The position numbers were made by a program, and so were the translations under genes. From Bacteroidales bacterium (GTDB lineage Bacteria > Bacteroidota > Bacteroidia > Bacteroidales > UBA932): a stretch of 62,245 nucleotides of DNA. The notes beneath the pieces were generated by a model. The model saw only the letters and a list, made by a program, of their open reading frames with translations, was not told the DNA's origin and did no database searches. How positions within the stretch are numbered: the stretch's first letter is position 1; every line of letters begins with the position of its first letter. Location of the stretch: positions 1-62,245 of the forward strand of contig JAFZED010000049.1 of the NCBI GenBank assembly GCA_017560825.1. Reading direction: 5' to 3'. Shown here piece by piece: positions 24,788 to 40,625 of this stretch.

Positions 24788-27700
24788 ATGCGCGCAAATT
24801 CGATTAAACTCTCATTCGTCTATATCCTTTCACTTTTAGCGATTGTTTCTTGTCTCCAGGAGGAGCGTTCGCCGGAGGACATCCTCGTGCCGTCGCCTGC
24901 TCAGGTTGAGACTTCTGACGCATCGTTGATGCTTGCTTCGAAGGTGCCGACTGGTTCTGAGAGGTTGGTGCAGGAGTGTGGTTTTTACTACAGCAAGGAC
25001 AAATCTATGGCTGATACCCGTAAGGTGGCAGGTATGCTGGCTGCCAATAATTTTACGGCTGAGCTGCCAGACAGGACTTATGGTACTACCTATTATATAT
25101 GTGCATATGTGACCAATGGTCACGGCTCGGAGATCCGTTCGGATCTTCGTACCTTCCAACTTGACGAACTTGAGGAATATGTGGAGTTCGGTCAGGTGAA
25201 TATGGTGTCATTTGATCCTTCGTCAAAGCAGCTGATGATAACCATTGACACAGACATATGGGCAGGTGTTAGCGTGAGTGAGGCCGGAGTGTGCTATGGT
25301 GCAGAGCCGACTTCTCTTTCGATAGAAGGAGATCATAAGGAAGGAGTCTATAGGTCTGAGACCCGTGCTGAAGCAGGAGTGATAGAGATTCTTCTCAACA
25401 ACTTTTCAGAGGCGACCCAGTATTACCTCAGACCTTATGTGAAGGACGGAGATTATCTTTCATATGGTGAGGTTGTTCCGTTCTATATTCCTGCTGTTGC
25501 GAAGGTTTCTACATTCGAGGCTGAGGGGGTAACTGCTTCAGGAGCAACCCTTTCCGGAGAGGTGACAGATGAGTGCGGTTCGGCTGTTACGGAGCGTGGA
25601 TTCGCTTGGATTGAGGGCGATGCTGTGCCTACCATCGAGGATAGTCATATGGCAGTAGGCAGCGGCCTCGGTGCTATGACCGCAACCGTTGAAGGTCTCG
25701 ATCCTAATAAGAAATATACATTCAGAGCCTACGCGACAAACGCTTCCGGCACCGCCTACGGCGAAGCTAAGGTCTTCACGACCCTTGTCGCTCTGCCTTC
25801 GCTTGCGGCTTCGACAATTTCGAATATTACTTCAACTTCCGCTACCTTCAACGGAGTCCTTGCGAACGACGGTGGCGAGAGTGTTTCCGAGGTCGGATTC
25901 TACTACAGCACTGAGAAGGAAGTTAACCCTGAGACAGCGCAGAAGGTAAGCCTCGAGTACTCGACTTATCAGAAGTCTGCTAAGGAACTCTCAGCAAACA
26001 CCCTTTACTCCGCAATCCAGTCGGCTCAGGCAGCCGCCTCAGACGAAGGCGAGTTCTTCTCTATTGACGTCTACAGCCTCGGCATCAAGACAAAGTACTA
26101 TGTGAAGTCTTACGCTGTGAACTCAGCCGGAGTGGCTTACGGTTCAGTAGTCAACTTCGAGACATCCGGTGAGATCGCAACCATCAAGACCGTCGGCTCA
26201 AGCGAGGTTACAACAAGCAGCGCAGTCCTCTCTGCAAACATTACAACCGACAACGGCGAGAAGATCACCGAGCGCGGTTTCGTGTGGATGGAAGGTGCAG
26301 GCAATCCGACTACAGAGTCGAACAAACTCAAGGTCTCAGGCGAGGTGGGCGAGTACACTGCCACCCTCGAAGGCCTCGATCCGAATAAGAAATATTCATT
26401 CAGGGCATATGCAATCAATGCGGAAGGAACAGCCTACGGCGACGTGATGAGCTTTACGACAAAGGTGGATTTGCCGGCGTTGTCTAATGTCGTTATCCCA
26501 TCGCTGTCTTCAACTACTGCGACTCTTACCAGCAAGGTGACATATCACGGTGGTGAGACTATTACAGAGGTCGGATTCTACTATAGCACTGAGTCTGATG
26601 TTGATCCGGAGACTTCGCAGAAGGTAAGCCGTATATATTCTGAAGACACCTTCTCTATCGAAGTCGCAAACCTCGGTATCAACACCAAGTACTATGTCAA
26701 GGCATATGCAATCAACTCAGCAGGAACTGCTTATAGTGAGATAAATAGCTTTAAGACAGAGTCTTCTGTGCCGTCGGTTCAGACAATTGGCGTTGCTGAT
26801 ATTACCCCTGAAAGCGCACTCCTCTCAGGCTCAATACTCAGCGACAACGGAGCATCCATCACCGAGCGCGGCTTCGTCTGGATCCAGGGTGACGGAACTC
26901 CTACGGTAGATTCTCATAAGCTCACAGCCACCGGCACAACTGGTGAATTTACATCATCGCTTACCGGTCTTGAGCCAAACAAGAAGTACAGCTTCCGCGC
27001 CTATGCAACCAACTCAAAGGGTACAGCTTATGGTGAGATTATGACATTCTCGACAGTAGCCGGTCTCCCTGCCCTCTCATCTGTTGACGTCTCGGCCATC
27101 ACATCCACTTCCGCAACCTTCTCCAGCACCGTCACTGACCACGGCGGCGAAACCGTATCAGAAGTCGGTTTCTACTACAGCACAGACGAAACTGTAGACC
27201 CTGCAACCTCAGTAAAGGTAACCCAGAAGTACGCCAAAGACGTATTCACATCCCAGATAGCCGACCTTGCAATCTTCACAAAATACTACGTCAAAGCCTA
27301 CGCAACAAACTCGGCGGGAACTGCTTATAGTGTAATATATTCGTTTACTACACTTGCTTCTACGCCAATTGTAAATACAATAGGTTCATCGGAAGTAACG
27401 TCTACAACTGCCGTCCTTTCCGGAACAGTTGTAGCTGATAATGGAGCAGAAGTTACAGAACGTGGCTTTGTATGGATGTTGGGAGAGGGTGTACCTACGA
27501 TAGACTCTTATAAAATTACTACATCAGGTAAGATTGGAGATTACACAGCTACAGTTAAAGACCTTGCCCCTAATCAGAAATATTCGTTCCGTGCATACGC
27601 GGTCAACTCTGTAGGTACATCTTACGGAGAGATAATGTCATTCACAACAAGCATATCCAAGGCTTCATTAGCTTCTGTGACAATTTCCAATATTGAGGAG

Positions 27701-30700
27701 ACCTCTGCCACAATTTCGAGCAAAGTTACTGGTCACGGAGGTGACACTGTCTCTGAAGTTGGTTTTTATTATAGCACAGAAGAGGCTGTAGATCCAGAGA
27801 AGTCTGTCAAGGTTAACCGTGTTTACTCAAGCGACTCGTTCTCTATTTCGATCAGCGGACTTGCAATCAACACCAAGTACTATGTGAAAGCCTATGCAGT
27901 AAACTCTGCAGGCACTGTGTACAGTGACGTTGCAAGCTTTACAACTCTTGCATCTACTCCTGTTGTCAATACAGTGGGCTCATCAGAGATATCTTCTACA
28001 GGTGCAGTACTTTCCGGAACAGTCGTAACCGACAATGGCGCTGCAATCACTGAGCGCGGTTTCGTATGGCTTAAGGGAACAGATGCTCCGACAACATCAT
28101 CCAACAAGGTGAAGGTTGAAGGCGCTACCGGTGACTTCACTGCAACAATCAGCGGACTCGATCCGAACCGGAAGTATTCATTCCGAGCATATGCAATCAA
28201 CTCTAAAGGTACTGCATATGGTGACATAATGATCTTCAATACAGTCGCAGGCCTTCCTGCACTTTCTGCAATGAAGGTAAGCAGCATCACTACAACCTCT
28301 GCGACATTCACCTGTACCGTGACAAATCACGGTGGCGAGACTGTGTCTGAGGTGGGATTCTACTACAGCAAGGAGGAATCAGTTGATGTTGAGACAGCCC
28401 AGAAGATAAGTGAAGTCTATAGCTCAGATACATTTACTCTCAAGGCAGAAGACCTTGAAATCGGTCAAAACTACTATGTGAAGGCGTACGTAAAGAACTC
28501 TGTAGGAGAGGCTTACAGCGCGGTCATTGCCTTCAAGACCACAAGCACAGCACCGTCTGTCAGCACGATTGGCTACACAAAACTTTCCGCTACAAGCGCG
28601 GAGCTTTCTGGACAGGTTATGGATGATAATGGAGAAAACATCACAGAACGTGGTTTTGTGTGGGTGAAGGGAACAAGTACTCCGACAACATCGTCTTCAA
28701 AACAGTCTGTAGAAGGAACAGTCGGAGACTACACTGCAACAATCACCGATCTCGAGCCTAACCAGATCTACTCATTCCGTGCCTACGCAATTAACTCCAA
28801 AGGAACAGCCTACGGTGACGTGATGCAGCTTCAGATTGCCGTTACTCTCCCGACAGTAACGACAAACGAGGTAATAGGCATCACCAACACCACAGCAACC
28901 TCTGGTGGCGTCATCATCTCAGACGGCGGTGGAGAAATCCTTGCCAAGGGTGTGGTTTGGAGTATGAGGCAAAATCCTACTCTGGAATCCTCAAATATGA
29001 CCAATGAAGGCGAAGGAACAGATGCCTTTACAAGCCAATTGTCAGGTCTTACTCCGGGCATACCTTACTACGTCAGAGCCTATGCAACCAATGTGATGGG
29101 TACAACCTACGGTGAGGAAAAACAATTTACCACAACCGGTGAAATTCAAGGAACTCCTCTCGAAGCCTCGAATAGCTTCATCATCTCCAACGCAGGCACC
29201 TACACCTTCCAGACAGTCAAAGGAAACAGCTCAGAATCAGTCGGCTCAGTAGCCTCAGCCGAAGTCCTCTGGGAGTCCTTTGGCACAGACGAGCAGCCAG
29301 AAGTAGGTTCACTCGTTCCGTTTGCCGTCTACAAAAACGGAAAAATAACTTTTGGAACCCCAGATCAGCATCGCGAAGGAAATGCAGTGATTGCTGCAAA
29401 GGACGCATCTGGTACTATCCTTTGGTCTTGGCACATCTGGCTGACAGATGAGCCTCAGGAGCAGGTCTATTATAACAATGCGGGCACAATGATGGACCGT
29501 AACCTTGGTGCTACATCTGCTACTCCTGGCGATGTGGGTGCATTGGGACTTTTGTATCAGTGGGGTAGGAAGGATCCTTTATTGGGTTCCTCTTCGATAA
29601 GAGAAAACATAGAGGCAAAATCAACCATCACTTGGCCGTCTGTCGTATCGTCAAATTCCTCGAATGGTACAATCTCTTATGCCACCGAGCATCCTACTAC
29701 CTTTATAACAGGTAATGGTAGTAATTATGATTGGTATTACCCGGGTTCATCATCAACCGACAACACCCGTTGGCAGTCATCTAAGACGATTTACGATCCT
29801 TGTCCTGCAGGTTGGCGTGTTCCCGATGGCGGAAGTGATGGTGTTTGGTCGAAAGCACTTGGTTCATCTTATTCCGTGGCATACGACAGCACCAATGAGG
29901 GTATGAACTTCTCCGGCAATTTCGGCGATGCTTCCACCATCTGGTATCCTGCTTCGGGTAATCGCAGCATCGGCGATGGGGCGCTGTACAGTGTCGGCGG
30001 CACTGGCACCTATTGGTCAGTTACTCCTAACGATTACTACGCTTACCGCCTGTACTTCAGCTACAATGGCAGCGTCTTTCCGTCCGACTACAGCTATCGA
30101 GCGTACGGGTGTGGCGTCCGTTGTCAGAAGGAAGGTACAGGCGGAGGCCCTATGTATGACAATAACTTTTCGACTTCTGGCGCAAGGAGTCTTTCAAGTG
30201 CCGGTACAGCCAATAGTTATATTGTCTCTGGAGCAGGAGTTTACAGTATCTCACCAGTAAAAGGAAACAGTTTGGAGTCTGTAGGTTCTGTTGCATCAGC
30301 AGAAGTCCTTTGGGAGACTTTCGGAACAGACGAGAAAATCTATAAAGGCTCCCTTGTGTCAGGAGCAAAATATGAGAACGGCAAGATCTATTTCAAAACA
30401 GCTGACTCCTATCGTGAAGGTAACGCCGTCGTCGCCGCAAAAGACGCGTCAGGCACCATTCTTTGGTCTTGGCACATCTGGTTGACCGATGAGCCAGAGG
30501 GTCAGGTTTATTACAACAATGCCGGCACTATGATGGACCGCAACCTCGGTGCGACATCTGCTACTCCTGGCGATGTGGGTGCTTTGGGACTTTTGTACCA
30601 GTGGGGTCGTAAGGATCCTTTCTTGGGTTCCTCTTCGATAAGCGAAGAAATAGACGCAAAATCGACCCTCACCTGGCCATCTGCGGTTTCGTCAAACTCT

Positions 30701-31189
30701 ACAAATGGCACAATAGATTATGCGGTTGAGCATCCTACTACCTTTATAACAGGTAATGGTAGTAATTATGATTGGTATTACACGGGTTCATCATCAACCG
30801 ACAATACCCGTTGGCAGTCATCTAAGACGATCTACGATCCTTGTCCTGCAGGTTGGCGTGTTCCCGATGGCGGAAGTGATGGTGTCTGGTCAACTGCGCT
30901 CGGTTCTTCGTCATATTTTAAAGATGACACATTATACGACAGCAGCAACGCGGGAATAAACTTCTCCGGCAATTTCGGCGATGCTTCCACCATCTGGTAT
31001 CCTGCTTCGGGTCATCGCTACTACGTCGGTGGGGCGCTGCTCGGTGTCGGCAGCTATGGCAACTATTGGTCAGTTACTCCTAGCAATTACGACGCTTACA
31101 GCCTGCACTTCGACTACTATGGCAGCGTCTATCCATCCAGCAGCAGCTATCGAGCGAGCGGGTTAGGCGTCCGTTGCGTCCAAGAGTGA
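24788..31189 (+). CDS. Giant surface lipoprotein: FN3-like stalk with two FISUMP modules bearing DGR-type variable regions
   Basis: A 2133-aa lipoprotein. The lipobox AIVSC is followed by LQEE, an acidic +2 to +5 signal like the Bacteroidota surface-export signal. Two N-terminal beta domains (to ~residue 232) lead into about twelve ~95-residue fibronectin-III-like repeats. These alternate between an ERGFVW type and an EVGFYYS type, and all carry the KYSFRAYA or KYYVKAYA edge strand. From ~residue 1457, two FISUMP modules follow (GTMMDRNLGAT, GLLYQWGRKDP, YDPCPAGWRVPDGG, YWSVTP, VRC). Each ends in a hypervariable segment (residues 1719-1779 and 2070-2130). The likely role is a long adhesin or ligand-binding receptor with a diversified tip. 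No promoter box is evident in the 41 nt upstream. Confidence 0.9.
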   Translation: MRANSIKLSFVYILSLLAIVSCLQEERSPEDILVPSPAQVETSDASLMLASKVPTGSERLVQECGFYYSKDKSMADTRKVAGMLAANNFTAELPDRTYGTTYYICAYVTNGHGSEIRSDLRTFQLDELEEYVEFGQVNMVSFDPSSKQLMITIDTDIWAGVSVSEAGVCYGAEPTSLSIEGDHKEGVYRSETRAEAGVIEILLNNFSEATQYYLRPYVKDGDYLSYGEVVPFYIPAVAKVSTFEAEGVTASGATLSGEVTDECGSAVTERGFAWIEGDAVPTIEDSHMAVGSGLGAMTATVEGLDPNKKYTFRAYATNASGTAYGEAKVFTTLVALPSLAASTISNITSTSATFNGVLANDGGESVSEVGFYYSTEKEVNPETAQKVSLEYSTYQKSAKELSANTLYSAIQSAQAAASDEGEFFSIDVYSLGIKTKYYVKSYAVNSAGVAYGSVVNFETSGEIATIKTVGSSEVTTSSAVLSANITTDNGEKITERGFVWMEGAGNPTTESNKLKVSGEVGEYTATLEGLDPNKKYSFRAYAINAEGTAYGDVMSFTTKVDLPALSNVVIPSLSSTTATLTSKVTYHGGETITEVGFYYSTESDVDPETSQKVSRIYSEDTFSIEVANLGINTKYYVKAYAINSAGTAYSEINSFKTESSVPSVQTIGVADITPESALLSGSILSDNGASITERGFVWIQGDGTPTVDSHKLTATGTTGEFTSSLTGLEPNKKYSFRAYATNSKGTAYGEIMTFSTVAGLPALSSVDVSAITSTSATFSSTVTDHGGETVSEVGFYYSTDETVDPATSVKVTQKYAKDVFTSQIADLAIFTKYYVKAYATNSAGTAYSVIYSFTTLASTPIVNTIGSSEVTSTTAVLSGTVVADNGAEVTERGFVWMLGEGVPTIDSYKITTSGKIGDYTATVKDLAPNQKYSFRAYAVNSVGTSYGEIMSFTTSISKASLASVTISNIEETSATISSKVTGHGGDTVSEVGFYYSTEEAVDPEKSVKVNRVYSSDSFSISISGLAINTKYYVKAYAVNSAGTVYSDVASFTTLASTPVVNTVGSSEISSTGAVLSGTVVTDNGAAITERGFVWLKGTDAPTTSSNKVKVEGATGDFTATISGLDPNRKYSFRAYAINSKGTAYGDIMIFNTVAGLPALSAMKVSSITTTSATFTCTVTNHGGETVSEVGFYYSKEESVDVETAQKISEVYSSDTFTLKAEDLEIGQNYYVKAYVKNSVGEAYSAVIAFKTTSTAPSVSTIGYTKLSATSAELSGQVMDDNGENITERGFVWVKGTSTPTTSSSKQSVEGTVGDYTATITDLEPNQIYSFRAYAINSKGTAYGDVMQLQIAVTLPTVTTNEVIGITNTTATSGGVIISDGGGEILAKGVVWSMRQNPTLESSNMTNEGEGTDAFTSQLSGLTPGIPYYVRAYATNVMGTTYGEEKQFTTTGEIQGTPLEASNSFIISNAGTYTFQTVKGNSSESVGSVASAEVLWESFGTDEQPEVGSLVPFAVYKNGKITFGTPDQHREGNAVIAAKDASGTILWSWHIWLTDEPQEQVYYNNAGTMMDRNLGATSATPGDVGALGLLYQWGRKDPLLGSSSIRENIEAKSTITWPSVVSSNSSNGTISYATEHPTTFITGNGSNYDWYYPGSSSTDNTRWQSSKTIYDPCPAGWRVPDGGSDGVWSKALGSSYSVAYDSTNEGMNFSGNFGDASTIWYPASGNRSIGDGALYSVGGTGTYWSVTPNDYYAYRLYFSYNGSVFPSDYSYRAYGCGVRCQKEGTGGGPMYDNNFSTSGARSLSSAGTANSYIVSGAGVYSISPVKGNSLESVGSVASAEVLWETFGTDEKIYKGSLVSGAKYENGKIYFKTADSYREGNAVVAAKDASGTILWSWHIWLTDEPEGQVYYNNAGTMMDRNLGATSATPGDVGALGLLYQWGRKDPFLGSSSISEEIDAKSTLTWPSAVSSNSTNGTIDYAVEHPTTFITGNGSNYDWYYTGSSSTDNTRWQSSKTIYDPCPAGWRVPDGGSDGVWSTALGSSSYFKDDTLYDSSNAGINFSGNFGDASTIWYPASGHRYYVGGALLGVGSYGNYWSVTPSNYDAYSLHFDYYGSVYPSSSSYRASGLGVRCVQE
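25489..29140 (+). repeat. Twelve alternating FN3-like repeats encoded in the first giant lipoprotein
   Basis: Units of roughly 280-330 nt alternate between type A (TERGFVW, PNKKYSFRAYA) and type B (SEVGFYYST, INTKYYVKAYA), so the natural period is an A-B pair near 190 residues. One B unit (about 25800-26160) has an extra insertion (YSTYQKSAKELSANTLYSAI). The units at about 27350-27900 are more AT-rich in silent positions than their neighbours. The paralogous gene at 33091 has only six such units before its FISUMP modules. Confidence 0.8.
29942..30124 (+). other. Variable region 1 (VR1), internal FISUMP module of the first giant lipoprotein
   Basis: A 61-codon segment from WYPASG to GVRC. Aligned by hand to VR2 (30995-31177), 24 codons differ, 22 of them change the residue, and 21 of those 22 keep base 3 as C or T. 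Framework codons (TAT TGG TCA GTT ACT CCT, GGC, GTC, CTG, TTC) are identical. The variable codons are reachable from AAC/AAT by changing only A. This is the pattern of DGR variable repeats. Confidence 0.8.
30995..31177 (+). other. Variable region 2 (VR2), C-terminal FISUMP module of the first giant lipoprotein
   Basis: Same length (183 nt) and framework as VR1, ending GTC CGT TGC, 4 codons (VQE and stop) before the gene ends. Variable codons include CAT, TAC, TAC, GTC, CTC, GGT, AGC, TAT, AAC and GAC, all ending in C or T except one TTA. A perfect 14-bp inverted repeat starts 23 nt after it, which would suit a DGR target with a downstream cruciform. Confidence 0.8.
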
Positions 31190-31200
31190 TTCGGACAGCG

Positions 31201-31235
31201 GTTCATATGAGCCCTGCTCGCGGGCTCATATGAAC
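31201..31235. repeat. Perfect 14-bp inverted repeat after VR2
   Basis: GTTCATATGAGCCC and GGGCTCATATGAAC flank a 7-nt loop (TGCTCGC), 12 nt after the stop codon. It could be a terminator stem (a weak T-rich stretch TTGCGTTTT follows). It could also be a hairpin/cruciform of the kind that lies beside DGR target sites in the Bordetella phage system. Confidence 0.75.
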
Positions 31236-31255
31236 TTGCGTTTTGATGTCTTATT

Positions 31256-31292
31256 CTCGCGCCTGGCGCGAGACGGCAGGCGCGAAGCGCCT
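31256..31292. repeat. Two adjacent GC-rich hairpins
   Basis: CTCGCGCC-T-GGCGCGAG at 31256-31272, then AGGCGC-GAA-GCGCCT at 31278-31292. They follow the 14-bp inverted repeat in the 3' flank of the first giant gene. Confidence 0.6.
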
Positions 31293-31338
31293 CAAAATTC
31301 GTGTGTTACCTAAATTACTGCACAGTAGTGTTTTACGC

Positions 31339-31400: not shown

Positions 31401-31814
31401 CTACTTCAAGGCATTGACTTCTTCTGGCGTCAAGCCGGTAAGCTCGCAGATAAGTTCTATGGGTAGTCCTTTTGCAAGCATTGCTGCCGCAATCTCTGTA
31501 CTACGTTTTGCGGTGCCAATCTCAATGCCTCTCTCCTCACCGATTGCAATACCTCGTGCTTCACCGACTTTTTCAGCATAGTCGATGGTATTCGCGTAGT
31601 CGCTTTCTGCATATAGACTTCTCATATAGTTCCTGATTTCATTTGCCGTAAAATTATTCAATTCCGACAAATCATACAAGACCCGGAAGAATTCTTCGTC
31701 GCGTTTGAACATAAATTTCGCCATCACATTACCAAACATTGCCTTACCGTGGCTCTTCTGAAGACTGCTCAGCAGCCTCTCTCTTTCTTCGTTTTTCTCC
31801 TTGAACTTTTCCAT
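31401..31814 (-). pseudogene. C-terminal remnant of an Rpn/PD-(D/E)XK transposase-like nuclease
   Basis: 137 residues that match only the tail of Rpn-type recombination-promoting nucleases: helical LSELNNFTANEIRNYMRSL, the AEKVGEARGIAIGEERGIEIG glycine/glutamate repeat (given here as IGEERGIEIG), and the closing LAKGLPIELICELTGLTPEEVNAL. The N-terminal ~170-residue PD-(D/E)XK catalytic domain is absent. The frame has a TAA eight codons before the ATG, so the gene is truncated and not merely mis-started. Together with the broken hip genes it marks this islet as decaying accessory DNA. Confidence 0.75.
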
Positions 31815-32348: not shown

Positions 32349-33074
32349 ATGGGAAGGAAATCTGTAAGATACAGTGGCAAGGTGGCTACCGCCAAGGATT
32401 TCACCCAATATATCTTGAAGTTCAAGGATTCAGATGTTTGGCCTACCGCAGAAATAGAATATGTCTACTATCAAATGGCGGTGGATAGTGGTATTGATAT
32501 GGAAAAGTCATCGTTGTTGACAATCGCTGGAACAAAACATTTCCTTACAGAGAGATTTGATAGGAAGCACGGGTCCAAGCAGCATTCTGCAACTTTGCGC
32601 TCGCTTTGTGGAGAGGTGACTTCATATGATGAATTGTTCGGCATATGAAGGTCTCTTGGTTTGCCTTACCGTGATCTGGAGCAAGTGTTTCGACGTGCAG
32701 TCTTTAATTATCTTGCAGGTGTTTCTGATGATCACGATAAAAACTTCTCCTTCTTGATGTCAGAAAAAGGTGTTTGGAGGCTGTCGCCAGCATATGACGA
32801 GACCTTTACAGTCAATTATAAAAATAGGTTTATCGGAGATAGACACGCTATGACAATAGCAGGGAATGACAGACTTGTCTCGCGAGATCAACTATTGAAA
32901 TTTGCATCTGAAAATGACATACGAAATGCCGATGATATCATTGATGAAGTAATTTCTAAATTGATGACTTTTGAACAGAAATCTGCAGATGCAGGAATTG
33001 ATGTCGCATTCATAGAAATTATATCTGAATATATAAGTTCACAAATCAATAAAGTAAGCCGAAAGAATCGTTAA
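32349..33074 (+). pseudogene. hipA-like toxin kinase, 5'-truncated and split by an in-frame TGA
   Basis: Two segments in the same frame, 32349-32648 and 32661-33074, are separated by a TGA at 32646-32648. Joined, they give a HipA kinase core: KDFTQYILKF and EIEYVYYQMAVDSGIDM (N-lobe), FLTERFDRKHG, LGLPYRDLEQVFRRAVFNYL, the catalytic SDDHDKNFSF, and LSPAYD as the metal-binding Asp. The N-terminal subdomain and glycine-rich phosphate loop are missing. HipA phosphorylates glutamyl-tRNA synthetase and induces growth arrest in E. coli; this copy should be inactive. Sequencing error at the TGA cannot be excluded, but the missing N-terminus argues for real decay. Confidence 0.78.
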
Positions 33075-33090
33075 ATTAACTGATCTGGAA

Positions 33091-36000
33091 ATGAAAAAAC
33101 TACTCACATACACCCTTTTACTACTCGCAGTTGTCTCCTGCCTCCAGGAGGAACGCTCCCCGGAGGATATCTTGATTCCATCCCCCGCGCAGGTTGATTG
33201 CTCGGAGGCGTCGTTTTCACTTACTTCGAAGGTGCCGAATGGATCGGAGAAGTTGGTTGAGGAGTGCGGTTTCCTTGTCGGAACGACAAAAGACTTCGCG
33301 GATGCTGTGACAGTTGAGGGAACGATGACGGCCAACGCTTTCGCGGCGGAGCTTCCGATGCGAAAGTATGGGGCGACTTATTATATATGTTCGTATGTTA
33401 CCAATGGCCACGGGTCGGAGATCAGGTCGGATGTTCGCAGTTTTGCATTGGAGTCGCTGGACAAGTATGTCAAGTTCGGTGCTGTGACTGTGCGTTCGTA
33501 TGATATGGCGTCGAAGACGGCGGAGCTTTCGCTGGCTGCGGACATATGGGCAGGAGTGGAGGTGAGCGAGGCGGGCCTTTGCTATGGTGAGTCAGAGGTA
33601 CTTTCCCTCGAGGGCGATTATGCGGCCGGTTCGCTTGCGGACGACGGCGCTATATACATAACCATCAATGGTTTTATCGACGGTGATAAGTACTATCTGC
33701 GACCATATCTCAGGGATGGCGAGTACCTTACCTATGGTGATGTGGTGGAATTTTCTATTCCTGCGGTGCCTGTGGTCAAGACCGCTGATGTGGCTGAAGT
33801 CACTTCTGAAGGGGCGGTGCTTTCGGGCGAGGTTGTCAAAGGCGCTGACATCAGCGAACGTGGTTTTATGCTTGCCGAGGGCGAGAGCAGTGCTGCGGAT
33901 ATGAAGCAGAAGAAGGTCGTTGAGGGAACCATAGGTGAATATACGCTTGCTTTGGAGGGGCTTCTGCCTAATCAGAAATATACATATTGTGCTTATGCGG
34001 TGAATCCTACCGGCACTTACTATGGTCCGGTCAAGTCGTTTACTACGAAGGTTGGACTTCCTGTGGTGGCTTCTGTGGTGGCATCATCGATCACATCTAC
34101 ATCTGCAACGCTTTCAGCTACCGTAAAGAGTCACGGTGGCGAGACTGTGTCGGAGGTAGGATTTTATTACAGCACTGATGAGGCGGTGGACATCGAGACT
34201 GCGACAAAGGTTAATAAGCCTTACTCTCAGGATGCATTCTCGATCGATGTTACTGATCTGGCTGTCAATACGAAACATTATGTGAAGTCATATGCAAAGA
34301 ACTCTGCTGGTGTTGCCTACAGTGATGTGGAAAGCTTTACGACAGCTGTGTCTTCGCCTTCTGTGAAGACTGTCGGCTTCTCTGCAGTAACATCTGCAAG
34401 TGCTGTCCTTACTGGTCTTGTGGTGAGTGACAATGGTGCTGCAATCACTGAGAGAGGATTCGTGTGGGTGAAGGGCTCGGACACTCCGACTACGGATTCG
34501 AACAAACTGAAGGTTGATGGTACGACAGGTGAATATACCTACACTCTCGAAGGTCTGGAGCCGAACCAGAAGTTCTCTTTCCGTGCATATGCGATAAACT
34601 CGAAGGGTACTTCGTATGGTGAGATTATGAACTTTACCACAGTTGCCGGTCTTCCGTCTTTGTCGGCTACCAAGGTGATAAGCATTTCTGAGACTTCTGC
34701 TACGTTTACTTGTACGGTGACTGATAATGGTGGTGCAACTGTTTCCAAGGTCGGTTTCTACTACAGCACAGATGCTGAGGTTAATCTTGAATCGGCCCAG
34801 AAGGTGGAGGAAGACTACAGCTCGGATAATTTCACCATCTCTGTAGATGGGCTTGAGGTCGGAACTGATTATTATGTGAAGGCTTTTGTGGCCAATTCGG
34901 CAGGAGAGGTGCAGAATGCGATAGTTCCATTCAAGACTGTAAGCGCAGCTCCGACCGTAAGGACTATAAAATATGAAAAAGTCTCGGCGACAAGCGTCAG
35001 ACTGACCGGAGAGGTTCTGGATGACAATGGTGAGCGCATCACTGATCGAGGATTTGTTTGGGATAAGGCAGAAGATGAGGTGTTCCCATATAAAGCACAG
35101 GTGCTTGGTGAGACCGGCGAGTTTTCAACCGTCATTGAGGATCTTCAGCCTAATCAGAAATATGCCTTCCGTGCCTACGCAACCAACTCGGTGGATACAT
35201 CTTATGGTGAGATCCTTGAGTTTGAGATTGTTGTCGGTCTTCCGACCGTAAAGACTGCAGAAGTGACCGACATATCGGATAACGTAGCAGTGTGTGGCGG
35301 CTCGGTAACATCTGACGGCGGTGGCGAGATCCTGGCGAAGGGTGTGATATGGAGCAAGCAGCCAAATCCTACCGTCGATCTTGCGACAAAGACCGATGAG
35401 GGCGAAGGAACAGAGTCCTTCACAAGCCGTCTGACCGACCTGAGTGCAGGATTTACCTATTATGTTCGTGCATATGCAACCAATGCAGTAGGCACTGCAT
35501 ATGGCGAAGAAAGGCGATTCACTACCACCGGCGAGATCCAGTCGGTAGCGCTCGAACCTGCCAACAGCTTCATCATATCATCATCGGATATATATTCATT
35601 CGCCGCCGTCAAGGGCAACAGCACCGAATCGGTCGGTGAGGTCGCATCGGCCGAGGTACTTTGGGAATCATATGGTACCGAAGAGGATATAACCACAGGC
35701 TCTCTGGTCGCATTCGCATCATATGCGAACGGAAAGATAACCTTCGCTACGGCTGACACCTACCGCGAAGGTAACGCCGTCGTCGCCGCAAAAGACGCCT
35801 CAGGAAAGATTCTTTGGTCTTGGCATATATGGATGACTGACCAACCGCAGGAGCACATATATCCGAACAATGCAGGTACAATGATGGACCGCAACCTGGG
35901 TGCTACTTCTTCTGAACCTGGTTCGGTGGGGTCTTTGGGCTTGCTTTATCAGTGGGGTCGTAAGGATCCGTTCCTGGGAGCTGGTACAATGGAAGGTGCT

Positions 36001-38973
36001 TCTCCAAAGTCTACTGGAATGTGGGAGGCACCGGCTGTCTCAGATGCTTCTAATGGAACGATAGAGCGCGCGATTGAGCATCCGACTCAGTTTATTTTCT
36101 CTGATGAAAAGAATATGGATTGGCAGTATATCCCAGATAACACCCGCTGGCAGTCTGAAAAGACAATGTACGACCCTTGTCCTGTCGGCTGGCGTGTGCC
36201 TGACGAAGGCGAGAATGGTGTTTGGAGTACTGCTGGATTTTCGAAGACCGTCTACGATGGCGCCAATGAAGGAATGTCTTTCGACATCACTTCTCCGGCG
36301 ACGACTTGGTACCCGGCTGCGGGTCACTTTACTAATCACGGTGATCCTTCATTTATGAATGGTAATGCATATTATTGGTCAGTTGCTATTGCCGGCGAAT
36401 ATGCGTATTCACTTTACTTCCATTCCGGCGGAGGTGTCGATTCGATGTTTCCGGCCTACCGTTCATGTGCTTACTCAGTCCGTTGCCAGAAAGAAGGTAC
36501 CGGCGGCGGCCCTCAGTACGACAATGACTTCTCGACTTCCAGTGCTACTCACCTTTCAGCGGCTGGTACCGCGAACAGCTATATTGTCTCCGGCGCCGGA
36601 ACCTACAGCATTGCTGCCGTGATGGGAAATAGCTATGAGTCAGTAGGTTCTGTTGATTCGGCTGAAGTGCTTTGGGAAAGTTTCGGAACTGATGAAAAGG
36701 TTACCAAAGGTGACCTTGTTGCGGGAGCGAAATATGAAGACGGTCTGATCTACTTCAAGACAGCTGATTGGTTCCGCGAAGGAAATGCCGTCATTGCAGC
36801 AAAGGATGCCTCTGGCACCATCCTCTGGTCTTGGCATATATGGCTGACCGACCAGCCTCAGGAGCAGATATATTACAACAATGCAGGTACGATGATGGAC
36901 CGCAACCTGGGTGCGACAAGTGCCACTGCGGGTGATGTGGGTGCTTTGGGCCTCCTTTACCAGTGGGGCCGTAAGGATCCGTTCTTGGGATCTTCTTCTA
37001 TCAGCAGCAACACAGAAGTCAAATCAACGATTACTTGGCCGTCTGCCGTATCTTCAGATTCTTCGACAGGTACAGTAGATTTTGTTACTTCTCATCCGAC
37101 GACTTTTGTGACTGGTGGTTCTTCCTCATCTAATGATTGGCATTATTCTTCTCGCGACAACACGTTATGGCAGTCGGAGAAGTCAATATATGATCCATGT
37201 CCACTTGGTTGGCGTGTACCAGATGGTGGAGATAATGGTGTGTGGGCAACAGCGAAGGGTTCATCATCGTCTTACACCAGAAGTTATGACAGTACAAATA
37301 AAGGAATGAACTTTTCCGGTGATTTCGGTCTTGTCTCAACCATTTGGTATCCTGCTCCGGGTTATCGCTACGACTACGACGGGTCCTTGAGCAATGTCAG
37401 CTACGGCGGCTACTATTGGTCAGTTGCTACATTCGATTACTACGCTTGCACCTTGAACTTCAGCGACAATGGCGAAGTCAGTCCATCAAGCAACGATCAT
37501 CGGGCCGACGCGCGGTCTGTCCGTTGCCAGAAAGAAGGCACAGGTGGCGGTACAGATGGAGGCACAAAGTATGACAACGACTTCTCGACCTCTGGCGCAA
37601 GAAATCTTTCTGATGAAGGTACTTCAAACAGCTACATCGTGTCAAGCGCAGGAACATACAGCATATCTCCTGTAAAAGGTAATAGCAGCGAGTCCATTGG
37701 TTCCGTTGCCTCCGCAGAGGTCCTCTGGGAAACATTTGGTACCGATGAGAGGATCTTCAAGGGTAATCTGATTTCAGGCGCACGATACGAGAATGGTCAT
37801 ATCTACTTCAAGACAGCAGATTCTTACCGCGAGGGTAATGCTGTGATAGCCGCAAAAGATGCCTCTGGTACAATTCTATGGTCATGGCATATCTGGCTGA
37901 CGGACGAGCCTCAGGATCAGGTATATAACAACAATGCCGGCACAATGATGGACCGTAACCTTGGTGCTACATCTGCTACTCCTGGAGATGTAGGTGCTTT
38001 GGGCCTGTTGTACCAGTGGGGCCGTAAGGATCCTTTCTTGGGTTCTTCATCGATAAGCAGCAGTACCGTGGCAATGTCTACCATCACCTGGCCATCAGCA
38101 GTGTCGTCAAATTCCTCGAATGGTACAATCTCTTATGCTACCGAGCATCCGACAATCTTCATTAAGTATAACAGTAATAATTACGATTGGTATTACACCG
38201 GTTCGTCGTCAACCGACAACACCCGTTGGCAGTCATCTAAGACGATTTACGATCCTTGTCCTGTAGGTTGGCGTGTTCCCGATGGCGGTGACAATGGTGT
38301 CTGGTCAACTGCGCTCGGTTCTTCGTCAGATTTTGAAGATTACATATTATACGACAGCAGCAACGCGGGAATAAACTTCTCCGGCAGGTTCGGCTCTGCA
38401 AGTACAATCTGGTACCCAGCTTCGGGTTGTCGCGGCCTCGACGATGGGGCACTGAACATTGTCGGCTACGACGGCTACTATTGGTCAGTTACTCCTAACA
38501 GCGACTACGCATACGGCCTGCACTTCAACGACCTTGGCAATGTCGATCCGACGGACTTCACCTATTGGGCGAACGGCTTCTCGGTCCGTTGCTTCAAGGA
38601 AGGTTCAGGAATCGATATGCCAGGAGCGGAGGTACTAACGTATTCTCTGGATAGTGTTACAGAAAGTAGCGCTATTCTCTATGGGGAGGTAGTGTCCGAT
38701 GGCGGATTGCAGATTATTGAACGTGGATTTGTTTGGGAAGAAGGAGAAGGGACTCCTACGATTTCTTCAAACAAGCTTACGGTGAGCGGAACAGTTGGTG
38801 AATTTAGTGCGGAACTCAATGGATTGAAATCAGATCAATTGTACTCATACAGTGCATATGCAATTAATGCAGGAGGTGTGATTTCATATGGCGGTATAGT
38901 AGTGTTCAGAACTCAGGCATATGGTCCGGATTCGTCTACTCCTGATTGGGAGTTTGATCCGGGTCTTAACTGA
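33091..38973 (+). CDS. Second giant surface lipoprotein: shorter FN3-like stalk, three FISUMP modules with variable regions, C-terminal FN3-like domain
   Basis: A 1960-aa paralogue of the protein at 24788. The N-terminus is nearly the same (lipobox AVVSC, then LQEERSPEDIL). Two beta domains and six alternating ERGF/EVGFYYS repeats lead to three FISUMP modules starting near residues 820, 1155 and 1507. Variable segments lie at residues 1073-1132 (A), 1419-1479 (B) and 1774-1834 (C). Unlike its paralogue it ends with one more ERGFVW-type repeat and a DPGLN tail, so all its variable regions are internal. A terminator at 38982-39016 and an inserted IS follow. I infer a surface receptor or adhesin with several diversifiable binding domains. 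Confidence 0.9.
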   Translation: MKKLLTYTLLLLAVVSCLQEERSPEDILIPSPAQVDCSEASFSLTSKVPNGSEKLVEECGFLVGTTKDFADAVTVEGTMTANAFAAELPMRKYGATYYICSYVTNGHGSEIRSDVRSFALESLDKYVKFGAVTVRSYDMASKTAELSLAADIWAGVEVSEAGLCYGESEVLSLEGDYAAGSLADDGAIYITINGFIDGDKYYLRPYLRDGEYLTYGDVVEFSIPAVPVVKTADVAEVTSEGAVLSGEVVKGADISERGFMLAEGESSAADMKQKKVVEGTIGEYTLALEGLLPNQKYTYCAYAVNPTGTYYGPVKSFTTKVGLPVVASVVASSITSTSATLSATVKSHGGETVSEVGFYYSTDEAVDIETATKVNKPYSQDAFSIDVTDLAVNTKHYVKSYAKNSAGVAYSDVESFTTAVSSPSVKTVGFSAVTSASAVLTGLVVSDNGAAITERGFVWVKGSDTPTTDSNKLKVDGTTGEYTYTLEGLEPNQKFSFRAYAINSKGTSYGEIMNFTTVAGLPSLSATKVISISETSATFTCTVTDNGGATVSKVGFYYSTDAEVNLESAQKVEEDYSSDNFTISVDGLEVGTDYYVKAFVANSAGEVQNAIVPFKTVSAAPTVRTIKYEKVSATSVRLTGEVLDDNGERITDRGFVWDKAEDEVFPYKAQVLGETGEFSTVIEDLQPNQKYAFRAYATNSVDTSYGEILEFEIVVGLPTVKTAEVTDISDNVAVCGGSVTSDGGGEILAKGVIWSKQPNPTVDLATKTDEGEGTESFTSRLTDLSAGFTYYVRAYATNAVGTAYGEERRFTTTGEIQSVALEPANSFIISSSDIYSFAAVKGNSTESVGEVASAEVLWESYGTEEDITTGSLVAFASYANGKITFATADTYREGNAVVAAKDASGKILWSWHIWMTDQPQEHIYPNNAGTMMDRNLGATSSEPGSVGSLGLLYQWGRKDPFLGAGTMEGASPKSTGMWEAPAVSDASNGTIERAIEHPTQFIFSDEKNMDWQYIPDNTRWQSEKTMYDPCPVGWRVPDEGENGVWSTAGFSKTVYDGANEGMSFDITSPATTWYPAAGHFTNHGDPSFMNGNAYYWSVAIAGEYAYSLYFHSGGGVDSMFPAYRSCAYSVRCQKEGTGGGPQYDNDFSTSSATHLSAAGTANSYIVSGAGTYSIAAVMGNSYESVGSVDSAEVLWESFGTDEKVTKGDLVAGAKYEDGLIYFKTADWFREGNAVIAAKDASGTILWSWHIWLTDQPQEQIYYNNAGTMMDRNLGATSATAGDVGALGLLYQWGRKDPFLGSSSISSNTEVKSTITWPSAVSSDSSTGTVDFVTSHPTTFVTGGSSSSNDWHYSSRDNTLWQSEKSIYDPCPLGWRVPDGGDNGVWATAKGSSSSYTRSYDSTNKGMNFSGDFGLVSTIWYPAPGYRYDYDGSLSNVSYGGYYWSVATFDYYACTLNFSDNGEVSPSSNDHRADARSVRCQKEGTGGGTDGGTKYDNDFSTSGARNLSDEGTSNSYIVSSAGTYSISPVKGNSSESIGSVASAEVLWETFGTDERIFKGNLISGARYENGHIYFKTADSYREGNAVIAAKDASGTILWSWHIWLTDEPQDQVYNNNAGTMMDRNLGATSATPGDVGALGLLYQWGRKDPFLGSSSISSSTVAMSTITWPSAVSSNSSNGTISYATEHPTIFIKYNSNNYDWYYTGSSSTDNTRWQSSKTIYDPCPVGWRVPDGGDNGVWSTALGSSSDFEDYILYDSSNAGINFSGRFGSASTIWYPASGCRGLDDGALNIVGYDGYYWSVTPNSDYAYGLHFNDLGNVDPTDFTYWANGFSVRCFKEGSGIDMPGAEVLTYSLDSVTESSAILYGEVVSDGGLQIIERGFVWEEGEGTPTISSNKLTVSGTVGEFSAELNGLKSDQLYSYSAYAINAGGVISYGGIVVFRTQAYGPDSSTPDWEFDPGLN
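36307..36486 (+). other. Module A segment equivalent to a variable region, diverged
   Basis: It corresponds in place to VR1/VR2 but is one codon shorter (180 nt) and differs at framework and silent positions as well. Several codons at variable positions cannot come from AAY by A-changes alone (for example GCC at the start of the second variable block, and ATG). It looks like an older module no longer matched to the template. Confidence 0.55.
37345..37527 (+). other. Variable region B in the second giant lipoprotein
   Basis: 183 nt with the same framework (TAT TGG TCA GTT, GGC, GTC, GTC CGT TGC). Codons at the variable positions (TAT, TAC, GAC, TAC, AGC, AAT, TAC, TAC, AAC, AGC, GAC, AAT, AGT, AGC, AAC, GAT, GAC) again end in C or T and are A-derived from AAC/AAT. 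There are more framework differences than between VR1 and VR2. Confidence 0.7.
38410..38592 (+). other. Variable region C in the second giant lipoprotein
   Basis: 183 nt. Variable positions read TGT, GGC, CTC, GAC, AAC, ATT, TAC, GAC, TAC, AAC, AGC, GGC, CAC, AAC, GAC, CTT, AAT, GAT, GAC, TTC, ACC and AAC, all ending in C or T. The framework is close to VR1 and VR2, including ACT CCT after TAT TGG TCA GTT. Confidence 0.75.
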
Positions 38974-39164: not shown

Positions 39165-40625
39165 CTATTTGGTCGTTTTGATGCCCAAGAGCGTCAATAT
39201 TCTCTTTAGATTTGACGCAAATACACACATCGCCCCCTGCATTTTCATACTTTCCAATCCGTATGAAAGTGCCCTAGAGTATCCATAAGCATTCTTAAGT
39301 TCGGCATTCTTGGCTTCGATCATATATCTAAGCTTGTATTTTTCATCAAAGAAGGCTGAATTTTCGAACTTCATGTAGTCTTCATGAGTCTCGCTCAATA
39401 TTCTTATGCTTCTGCTTTTGCTTTTTGCCCCTGTCTTCAAACATTTGGACTTGAGAGGGCATTTTTTACATTTTACTTTTGAGAAATTGAAGACAAGTCT
39501 ATCATTGATCCCTCCTTTCTCTTTGGCAATTCTGGAACTCATTGCAAGATGTCCTGCCGGACACTGCATTGTGGCTGCATCCTTGTTGTATATAAAGCCA
39601 TCATCTCTGTTATCGTCGGCGGAGTAGACAGCGGGGTTAAGTTTTGCGACTAGCTGTATCTCATCCTCAGCGCATTTCTCAATGTTTCCCTTGCTGCTGT
39701 ACGCAGCATCTGCAACAACTGTATCTACCTCTATACCTGCGTCTTCTGTTTTGTGTATCACATCCTGCAGATAGTTTCCATCCGCCTTTTCTCCGGATGT
39801 GACCACGACTCCGGTTATAAGGCGGTTGTCAGACAAGGCAATATGAGACTTGTAACCGTAGAACTTTCTTGTATTCGATTTATGACCCGCTCTTGCATCT
39901 CTATCATCGCTGGTTGTGCAATGATCCATTATATCTTCACAGGTCTCCTGAAGAAGATTCAGTTTCTCGGACACGGCAGGCAGTTCTGCATACTGGCTTT
40001 CTTTGATTATTTCTATCAGTTTTTGCGTATAAGAGATTTCCTCTGACAGATTCTGTCCCTCGTATTTTCGAGGGAATGACTTCTTCATCTCTTCGTTAAA
40101 GGCATAAATAGATTTGCGCAACGCAGATGAACGTTTACGTAATATCTCAAGAGGAAGCTGAGGATTGGAGCGAGATGTAGTGTGTGTCGCGTCAACAATA
40201 ATGGTCTTGGAGAACTTTATTCCTTTGGATAAAGCAATCTCTATCGTCTTACCAACAAGCATATCAAGCAGATTCATGTCCTTAAGACGGAGCTTTCTGA
40301 ACTTGGTCAGTGAACTGGACTCGATAACATCGTCTTCAGGCATCATACCCAAAAAGTACTTAAATGACAAGTCATATCTGGAACGTTCTACAACATCTGC
40401 ATCAGACACCTCATATATTGTCTTGAGTAATAGATATTTAAACATTCTGATAGGATTGATTGCAGAACGTCCTGTGCTTTCACTATACTTTGAACGAAGT
40501 TCGTCATATACAAAGGAAAAGTCAACCAATTCATTTAATTGGCGGAGCAGATTGGTTTTTGGGATGAGCATATCATACAATCTGATATGGTCACTCAATG
40601 GCAATATGGAATCTTGTTGGAGCAT
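39165..40625 (-). CDS. IS1182-family transposase
   Basis: A 486-aa DDE transposase. The N-terminal part (LRQLNELVDFSFVYDELRSK, GRSAINPIRMFKYLLL) is the DUF772-type domain of this family. The DDE core includes IIVDATHTTSRSNPQ (first Asp), VDTVVADAAYSSKGN (second Asp) and the C-terminal RYMIEAKNAELKNAYGYSRA (Glu). A cysteine-rich insertion (CPAGH, CKKCPLKSKCL) sits before the last acidic residue, as in other IS1182 members. The frame is open and full length, so the enzyme is probably active. Confidence 0.93.
   Translation of the reverse strand: MLQQDSILPLSDHIRLYDMLIPKTNLLRQLNELVDFSFVYDELRSKYSESTGRSAINPIRMFKYLLLKTIYEVSDADVVERSRYDLSFKYFLGMMPEDDVIESSSLTKFRKLRLKDMNLLDMLVGKTIEIALSKGIKFSKTIIVDATHTTSRSNPQLPLEILRKRSSALRKSIYAFNEEMKKSFPRKYEGQNLSEEISYTQKLIEIIKESQYAELPAVSEKLNLLQETCEDIMDHCTTSDDRDARAGHKSNTRKFYGYKSHIALSDNRLITGVVVTSGEKADGNYLQDVIHKTEDAGIEVDTVVADAAYSSKGNIEKCAEDEIQLVAKLNPAVYSADDNRDDGFIYNKDAATMQCPAGHLAMSSRIAKEKGGINDRLVFNFSKVKCKKCPLKSKCLKTGAKSKSRSIRILSETHEDYMKFENSAFFDEKYKLRYMIEAKNAELKNAYGYSRALSYGLESMKMQGAMCVFASNLKRILTLLGIKTTK

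Follow-up and report, generated by a model that had tools for sequence, protein, structure and literature searches.

The diversity-generating retroelement (DGR) of BPP-1 combines adenine-specific mutagenesis with a hairpin downstream of the variable region (VR), according to the available text of its description (PMC3240598). It resembles the locus studied here in both respects and differs from it in that its hairpin has 7-10 bp and a GRNA tetraloop, compared with stems of 14-18 bp and loops of 7-12 nt in our genus, and in that its target is a phage tail protein rather than a bacterial stalked surface protein. The DGR of Treponema denticola has several remote target genes, 62% of them with lipoprotein signals, and isolates occur that possess target genes but neither the reverse transcriptase (RT) nor the template repeat (TR); it belongs to another phylum, and the available part of that study describes no scar of recombination between TR and VR (PMC4891356). 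Incomplete DGR loci with remote targets, some of which are best explained by activity in trans, are described for Thiohalocapsa PB-PSB1, where the accessible text names a donor locus in the same genome for some targets, whereas none was seen in the genome studied here (PMC10907252). Remote targets are said to be missed by RT-centred surveys (PMC8144416, available portion), and a review, as far as its text was available, mentions Bacteroides DGRs whose targets are tip pilins (PMC12632263). Orphan DGR targets and activity in trans thus already have published precedents. Our literature search found no paper linking DGRs with FISUMP.

We analysed a stretch of 62,245 nucleotides (hereafter the window) from a Bacteroidales bacterium together with genomes of its genus, which are labelled G followed by a number (the window genome being G000, with C10 and C72 among its contigs), while loci are labelled L. 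The window encodes two paralogous variable proteins (VPs), both on the forward strand. The first (24788-31189, 2133 aa) consists of a lipoprotein-like start, a stalk of fibronectin-III-like repeats and two C-terminal FISUMP-like domains that carry VR1 (29942-30124) and VR2 (30995-31177). The second (33091-38973, 1960 aa) has three FISUMP-like domains with VR3 (36307-36486, 60 codons), VR4 (37345-37527) and VR5 (38410-38592). Fibronectin-III-like repeats were detected in both proteins by profile search, what we take to be a lipobox was read by eye at the start of both, and further VP copies are located on contigs C10 and C72. A preliminary description, made from the sequence alone, had named the fold FISUMP and counted it among the C-type-lectin-like folds that DGRs often target. 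In a profile search 21 of 51 domain copies matched at E 0.001, but the scores for the domain (TIGR02145) of 35.4 and 36.5 bits lie below the curated cut-off of 41.65, and the domains are therefore called FISUMP-like only. As regards the putative C-type-lectin-like fold, a structure model of the VR domain was of low confidence (pLDDT 46), and a PDB sequence search with this domain gave no match better than E 0.19, that one being to SH2 domains. Judging by the domain order, the VRs likely form the varying binding tip of a stalked surface lipoprotein.

A 137-aa ORF 3' of VR2 (31401-31814, reverse strand), which has no Pfam match, resembles by eye the terminal part of a PD-(D/E)XK transposase-family nuclease (PF12784; L008, 11328-12368, reverse strand) found at full length behind the VP of C72. 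The second VP of the window is flanked by a 137-aa ORF with a HipA C-terminal match (32661-33074) and by a DDE transposase (39165-40625, reverse strand).

VR1 and VR2 were compared codon by codon, by simulation and with TRs. They span 183 bp each, align without gaps and in frame with the ORF at 24788-31189, and differ in 24 of 61 codons, of which 22 are replacements and two are silent (codons 47 and 61); the changes at codon positions 1, 2 and 3 number 16, 14 and 3. In 21 of the 22 replacement codons the third base is unchanged and is C or T every time, the exception being codon 57 (TGT/TTA), so that the codon pattern given in the preliminary description was borne out. The same description held that ordinary divergence or selection would not protect third positions, and our chance model agrees with it: when codons were redrawn for the same residue pairs, with usage taken from ten window ORFs, the third base stayed unchanged in 7.8 of 22 codons on average and in 17 at most (20,000 draws). 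C or T third bases also prevail at the 24 codons listed as variable when nineteen VRs are pooled (442/456, versus 57% in four window ORFs), the pool comprising VRs of exactly 61 codons that start with WYP, from the window, L007, L008 and L039-L071, with other lengths excluded. Upstream of the VRs (29162-29929, 13 blocks of 20 codons, 4 gapped columns) the two domain copies have 73 silent differences, and from 29930 onwards they have two. Along the upstream part these differences are unevenly spread, the 20-codon block from 29702 having none, and the VR is therefore not the only homogenised tract. As an explanation, simple gene conversion of VR1 and VR2 was rejected, since it would copy the variable codons too, and 5 of 24 are common to both, close to the mean of 3.6 over 171 VR pairs.

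By screening the loci for N-rich readings, an AAC-rich copy of the VR was recognized in a congener, G039, where it lies some 1 kb beyond a VR and behind an Avd-like gene. In this TR, which is near-identical to the template guessed in the preliminary description, 26 of the 28 positions that distinguish VR1 from VR2 in codons 3-53 are A (Fisher P 7e-13), in support of the adenine-template mechanism put forward earlier; across the whole repeat it is 26 of 33. Within codons 3-53, mismatches to it affect 25/52 A versus 4/101 non-A positions in VR1, 25/52 versus 5/101 in VR2, and 27/52 versus 3/101 in the VR of C10 and likewise in that of G039, and template C was changed at none of 41 positions in these four VRs. 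The corresponding counts for VR4 are 23/52 A and 24/125 non-A, and for VR5 24/52 and 8/125. A physical A-rich template beside an RT, which is found in other congeners (see below), also bears on a history of ordinary duplication and later positive selection on the binding residues, with no template involved. The 22 replacement versus 2 silent codon differences in the VR would suit such a history, but the template and the third bases, kept more often than in any simulated draw, speak against it, and we rejected it as having practically no probability. Given the 21 of 22 third bases kept and a TR that carries A where the two VRs differ, we conclude that VR1 and VR2 are very probably targets of a DGR.

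The TR of G039 is close to the template of these VRs without being identical to it. The share of mismatches that face A is 25/29 for VR1 and 25/30 for VR2 in codons 3-53, and 25/37 (68%) for both over the whole repeat including the tail, the lower value being due to differing tails. This is below the share of 75% given as usual for DGRs in the available part of a survey (PMC8144416), which argues that the G039 TR is not the exact template. Moreover, codon 55 varies in the window VRs, and the G039 TR has TCC there, without an A. In the TRs of G342, G186 and G357 codon 55 is AAC, but their tail (GYS or GQS) and framework are different, and VR1, VR2 and the VRs of C10 and G039 have a common framework and a GxGVRC tail along with the varying codon 55. 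It follows that none of these four TRs, among which the exact template of the window VRs was not found, is that template, and that another one existed. With up to 2 mismatches allowed, the template pattern was present in 4 of 400 genus genomes (G039, G186, G342 and G357), the window genome not being one of them; the reversed pattern, used as a control, gave 0 among the matches listed. The template sequence guessed in the preliminary description, TTCAACAACAATGGCAACGT, recurs letter for letter in G342, G186 and G357, each time beside an RT and an Avd-like gene.

The DGRs of these three congeners (G186, SUYM01000019.1; G342, SUYQ01000017.1; G357, JAFQFD010000029.1) are comparable to the window in the C-terminal framework of the VP, an AAC-rich TR, an Avd-like gene and a hairpin after the terminal VRs checked, and they differ in that an RT adjoins the TR, while the window genome holds only a TR stub. 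In all three, VP, Avd, TR and RT stand in a row, with phmmer matches for VP, Avd and RT in L095, L096 and L097, and in G186 a second VP follows the RT. G039 possesses Avd and TR without an RT. One form that the cassette takes in the genus is VP - Avd - TR - RT, in which the RT, aided by the Avd-like protein, would copy a template RNA with AAC or AAT at the variable codons and misread its adenines. The resulting cDNA would replace the VR of the surface-protein gene, so that codon positions 1 and 2 are rewritten and the framework and third bases are left intact.

The motifs LPIG[ND]LTSQ and YVDD were present in all six RTs checked, and the SQ motif is a mark of DGR RTs. The best solved-structure match of a congener RT was 8ub7 (E 1e-38), which is named 'Reverse transcriptase' only, and its PHROG match was to reverse transcriptase (E 4e-93); the Avd-like protein of G039 matched the PHROG 'Avd protein of DGR' (E 1e-4). 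Among 400 genomes of the genus, 32 hold an RT of this group (E 1e-40). The TR query matched in 26 of 400, with the best two candidates per genome scored, and among the 30 loci that it yielded an RT reading frame lies within the locus in 12 genomes. An N-rich TR without RT was seen in these 30 loci only in G039, by a test that required a YWS or WWS motif and that gave no TR in four RT-bearing loci. A phage origin was set aside; the TR pattern has 0 exact matches in viral contigs, 99 phage records matched the congener RT, each with <60% identity, and three viral-contig loci had 41-47%.

The Avd-like protein at L072 6830-7534 has a MutS-I-like N-terminal part, below the Pfam cut-off, and an Avd-like C-terminal part. 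In G019 (L074, 4062-4526 and 9093-10489) a DGR is accompanied by a further Avd-like fragment and another short match to an RT start, and a second stretch there looks by eye like a template. The DGR of G054 (L073) has its Avd split over two reading frames, and by eye the genes beside it resemble those of conjugative transposons.

VR2 is the one C-terminal VR among the five in the window and also the one with a hairpin at its 3' side; an inverted-repeat scan found none after VR1, VR3, VR4 or VR5, which are all internal. This candidate DGR target hairpin or cruciform (31201-31235, forward strand) is a 14-bp perfect inverted repeat with a 7-nt loop that starts 23 nt after VR2, beyond the stop codon. 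It is followed by TGCGTTTTG (31237-31245, forward strand), and the DNA fold of 31178-31300 has a z of -7.0. A scan of 50 VR ends classed 38 as terminal by its own rule, and 13 of these had no stem by its criteria, so not every terminal VR of the genus has the hairpin; several other terminal ends gave inverted repeats at a different placement. Among 22 VR ends picked for recognisable tails (21 terminal and one ending some codons later), a choice that favours hairpins and left out 17 terminal ends, 19 show a stem of 14-18 bp with GTTTTG (14) or a sequence that differs from it by one base (5) behind the stem, and three do not. After many terminal VRs the sequence of the stem varies and its pairing is kept, a pattern as expected if hairpin structure rather than sequence matters. 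For BPP-1 it was shown, according to the available text, that the structure of the stem and not its sequence is important (PMC3240598). VR1, which has no such hairpin, may have been diversified while it was still C-terminal and would now be frozen.

The preliminary description had proposed looking for a DGR-type RT and an AAC-rich template in the same genome. In the window genome's assembly, which is 77% complete, a 3' stub of a template was present, but Pfam and DGR-RT protein searches found no RT, and neither a full TR nor an Avd was found. That description would have given up the DGR reading for a complete genome devoid of both, which a 77% assembly is not. The same kinds of search found no RT in G039 (94% complete) or G106 (95%). 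The G039 locus and contig C10 are collinear, but C10 lacks the Avd and the 5' part of the TR and retains a 3' TR stub that is identical to the TR tail of G039 in 79 of 80 positions. This tail is 88-89% identical to four VP tails (C72, L061, L063 and L067), a match that includes the stop codon and a hairpin arm, compared with 64-72% for the tails of three RT-adjacent TRs and 64-78% for six other VP tails. Because the TR tail is thus a VP tail, we posit that the RT in cis was probably deleted by recombination of the TR with the VR of a downstream VP, before the loci of C10 and G039 parted. The fact that TR and VR are direct repeats would favour such an event, and Avd and most of the TR were probably deleted later in the window genome. 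In G039, the VP-Avd-TR locus is flanked on either side by a copy (95%) of a stretch that includes the 3' end of mrp (L072, 3386-3563 and 8082-8260), as if the cassette had arrived as a unit bounded by direct repeats.

Next to this scar, 28 of 153 positions are different between the VR of C10 and that of G039, 26 of them being template A, while their flanks differ at 0/48 positions just upstream and at 2/147 downstream. Farther upstream than some 60 bp the two loci are diverged (10/80 to 29/100, ungapped), and the VR could therefore lie in a swapped tract. The differences may stem either from later diversification in trans or from VR swaps from other VP genes. In our main reading, diversification may have gone on after the RT loss, with machinery in trans provided by an unassembled locus or by other cells of the population. 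Swapping is credible since the VP gene is a mosaic between G000 and G039 (L007 versus L072), with blocks of 0 silent differences alternating with diverged blocks, compared with a dS of 0.47-2.0 for five neighbouring genes. VP modules thus seem to move between species.

These observations bear on whether the VRs are still being diversified. One explanation, to which we give nearly an even chance, is that the VRs were made by a DGR and have since the local loss of the RT only been moved among VP genes and species by homologous recombination, as a fossil repertoire. An assembly without RT or usable TR, the mosaic VP genes, the early end of C10/G039 identity upstream of the VR and the internal VRs without hairpin are all in keeping with it, as are T. 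denticola isolates that lack RT and TR and keep 2-6 target genes, which in the available text the authors read as leftovers (PMC4891356). It is harder to reconcile with a common scar beside VRs that differ at 26 template-A positions, which needs later diversification or VR swaps, and with the Avd of G039, which is intact and has a dN/dS of 0.05 and 0.06 against two RT-adjacent Avds (a third comparison being saturated), values that mostly reflect older history. The other explanation, which we rate somewhat short of even, is an active DGR with its RT and TR in the unassembled 23% of the genome or in an unbinned element, from where it would reach VR2, and other terminal VRs, in trans. It would account for the further template required by VR1, VR2 and the VRs of C10 and G039 and for VRs that differ mostly at template A beside the shared scar, and it fits the 77% completeness; activity in trans and structural variants with an intact RT are reported in the accessible part of the Thiohalocapsa study (PMC10907252). 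Against it, the far more complete G039 also has no RT, and the missing template could have gone long ago. The variable patches in the window are hence either frozen relics or served by an unassembled copy.

A broader reading is that a DGR can outlive its RT in cis, in that TR and VR recombination deletes the RT and the orphaned targets are still diversified by an RT from elsewhere, a shared, non-resident mutator. Its source would be a mobile element or a further cassette within the population. We regard this reading as unlikely on present evidence. The contig C10 of the window genome and contig C2 of G039 are a pair of loci on which diversification after RT loss could be examined directly with reads.

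The present analysis adds DGR-diversified multi-tip surface proteins with FISUMP-like tips in a genus of Bacteroidales that has gut members (one matching record comes from a goat caecum), and it suggests how the RT of a DGR may be lost. If a DGR can indeed outlive its RT in cis, the target genes in some genomes of this genus would depend on a mutator that is not resident in them.
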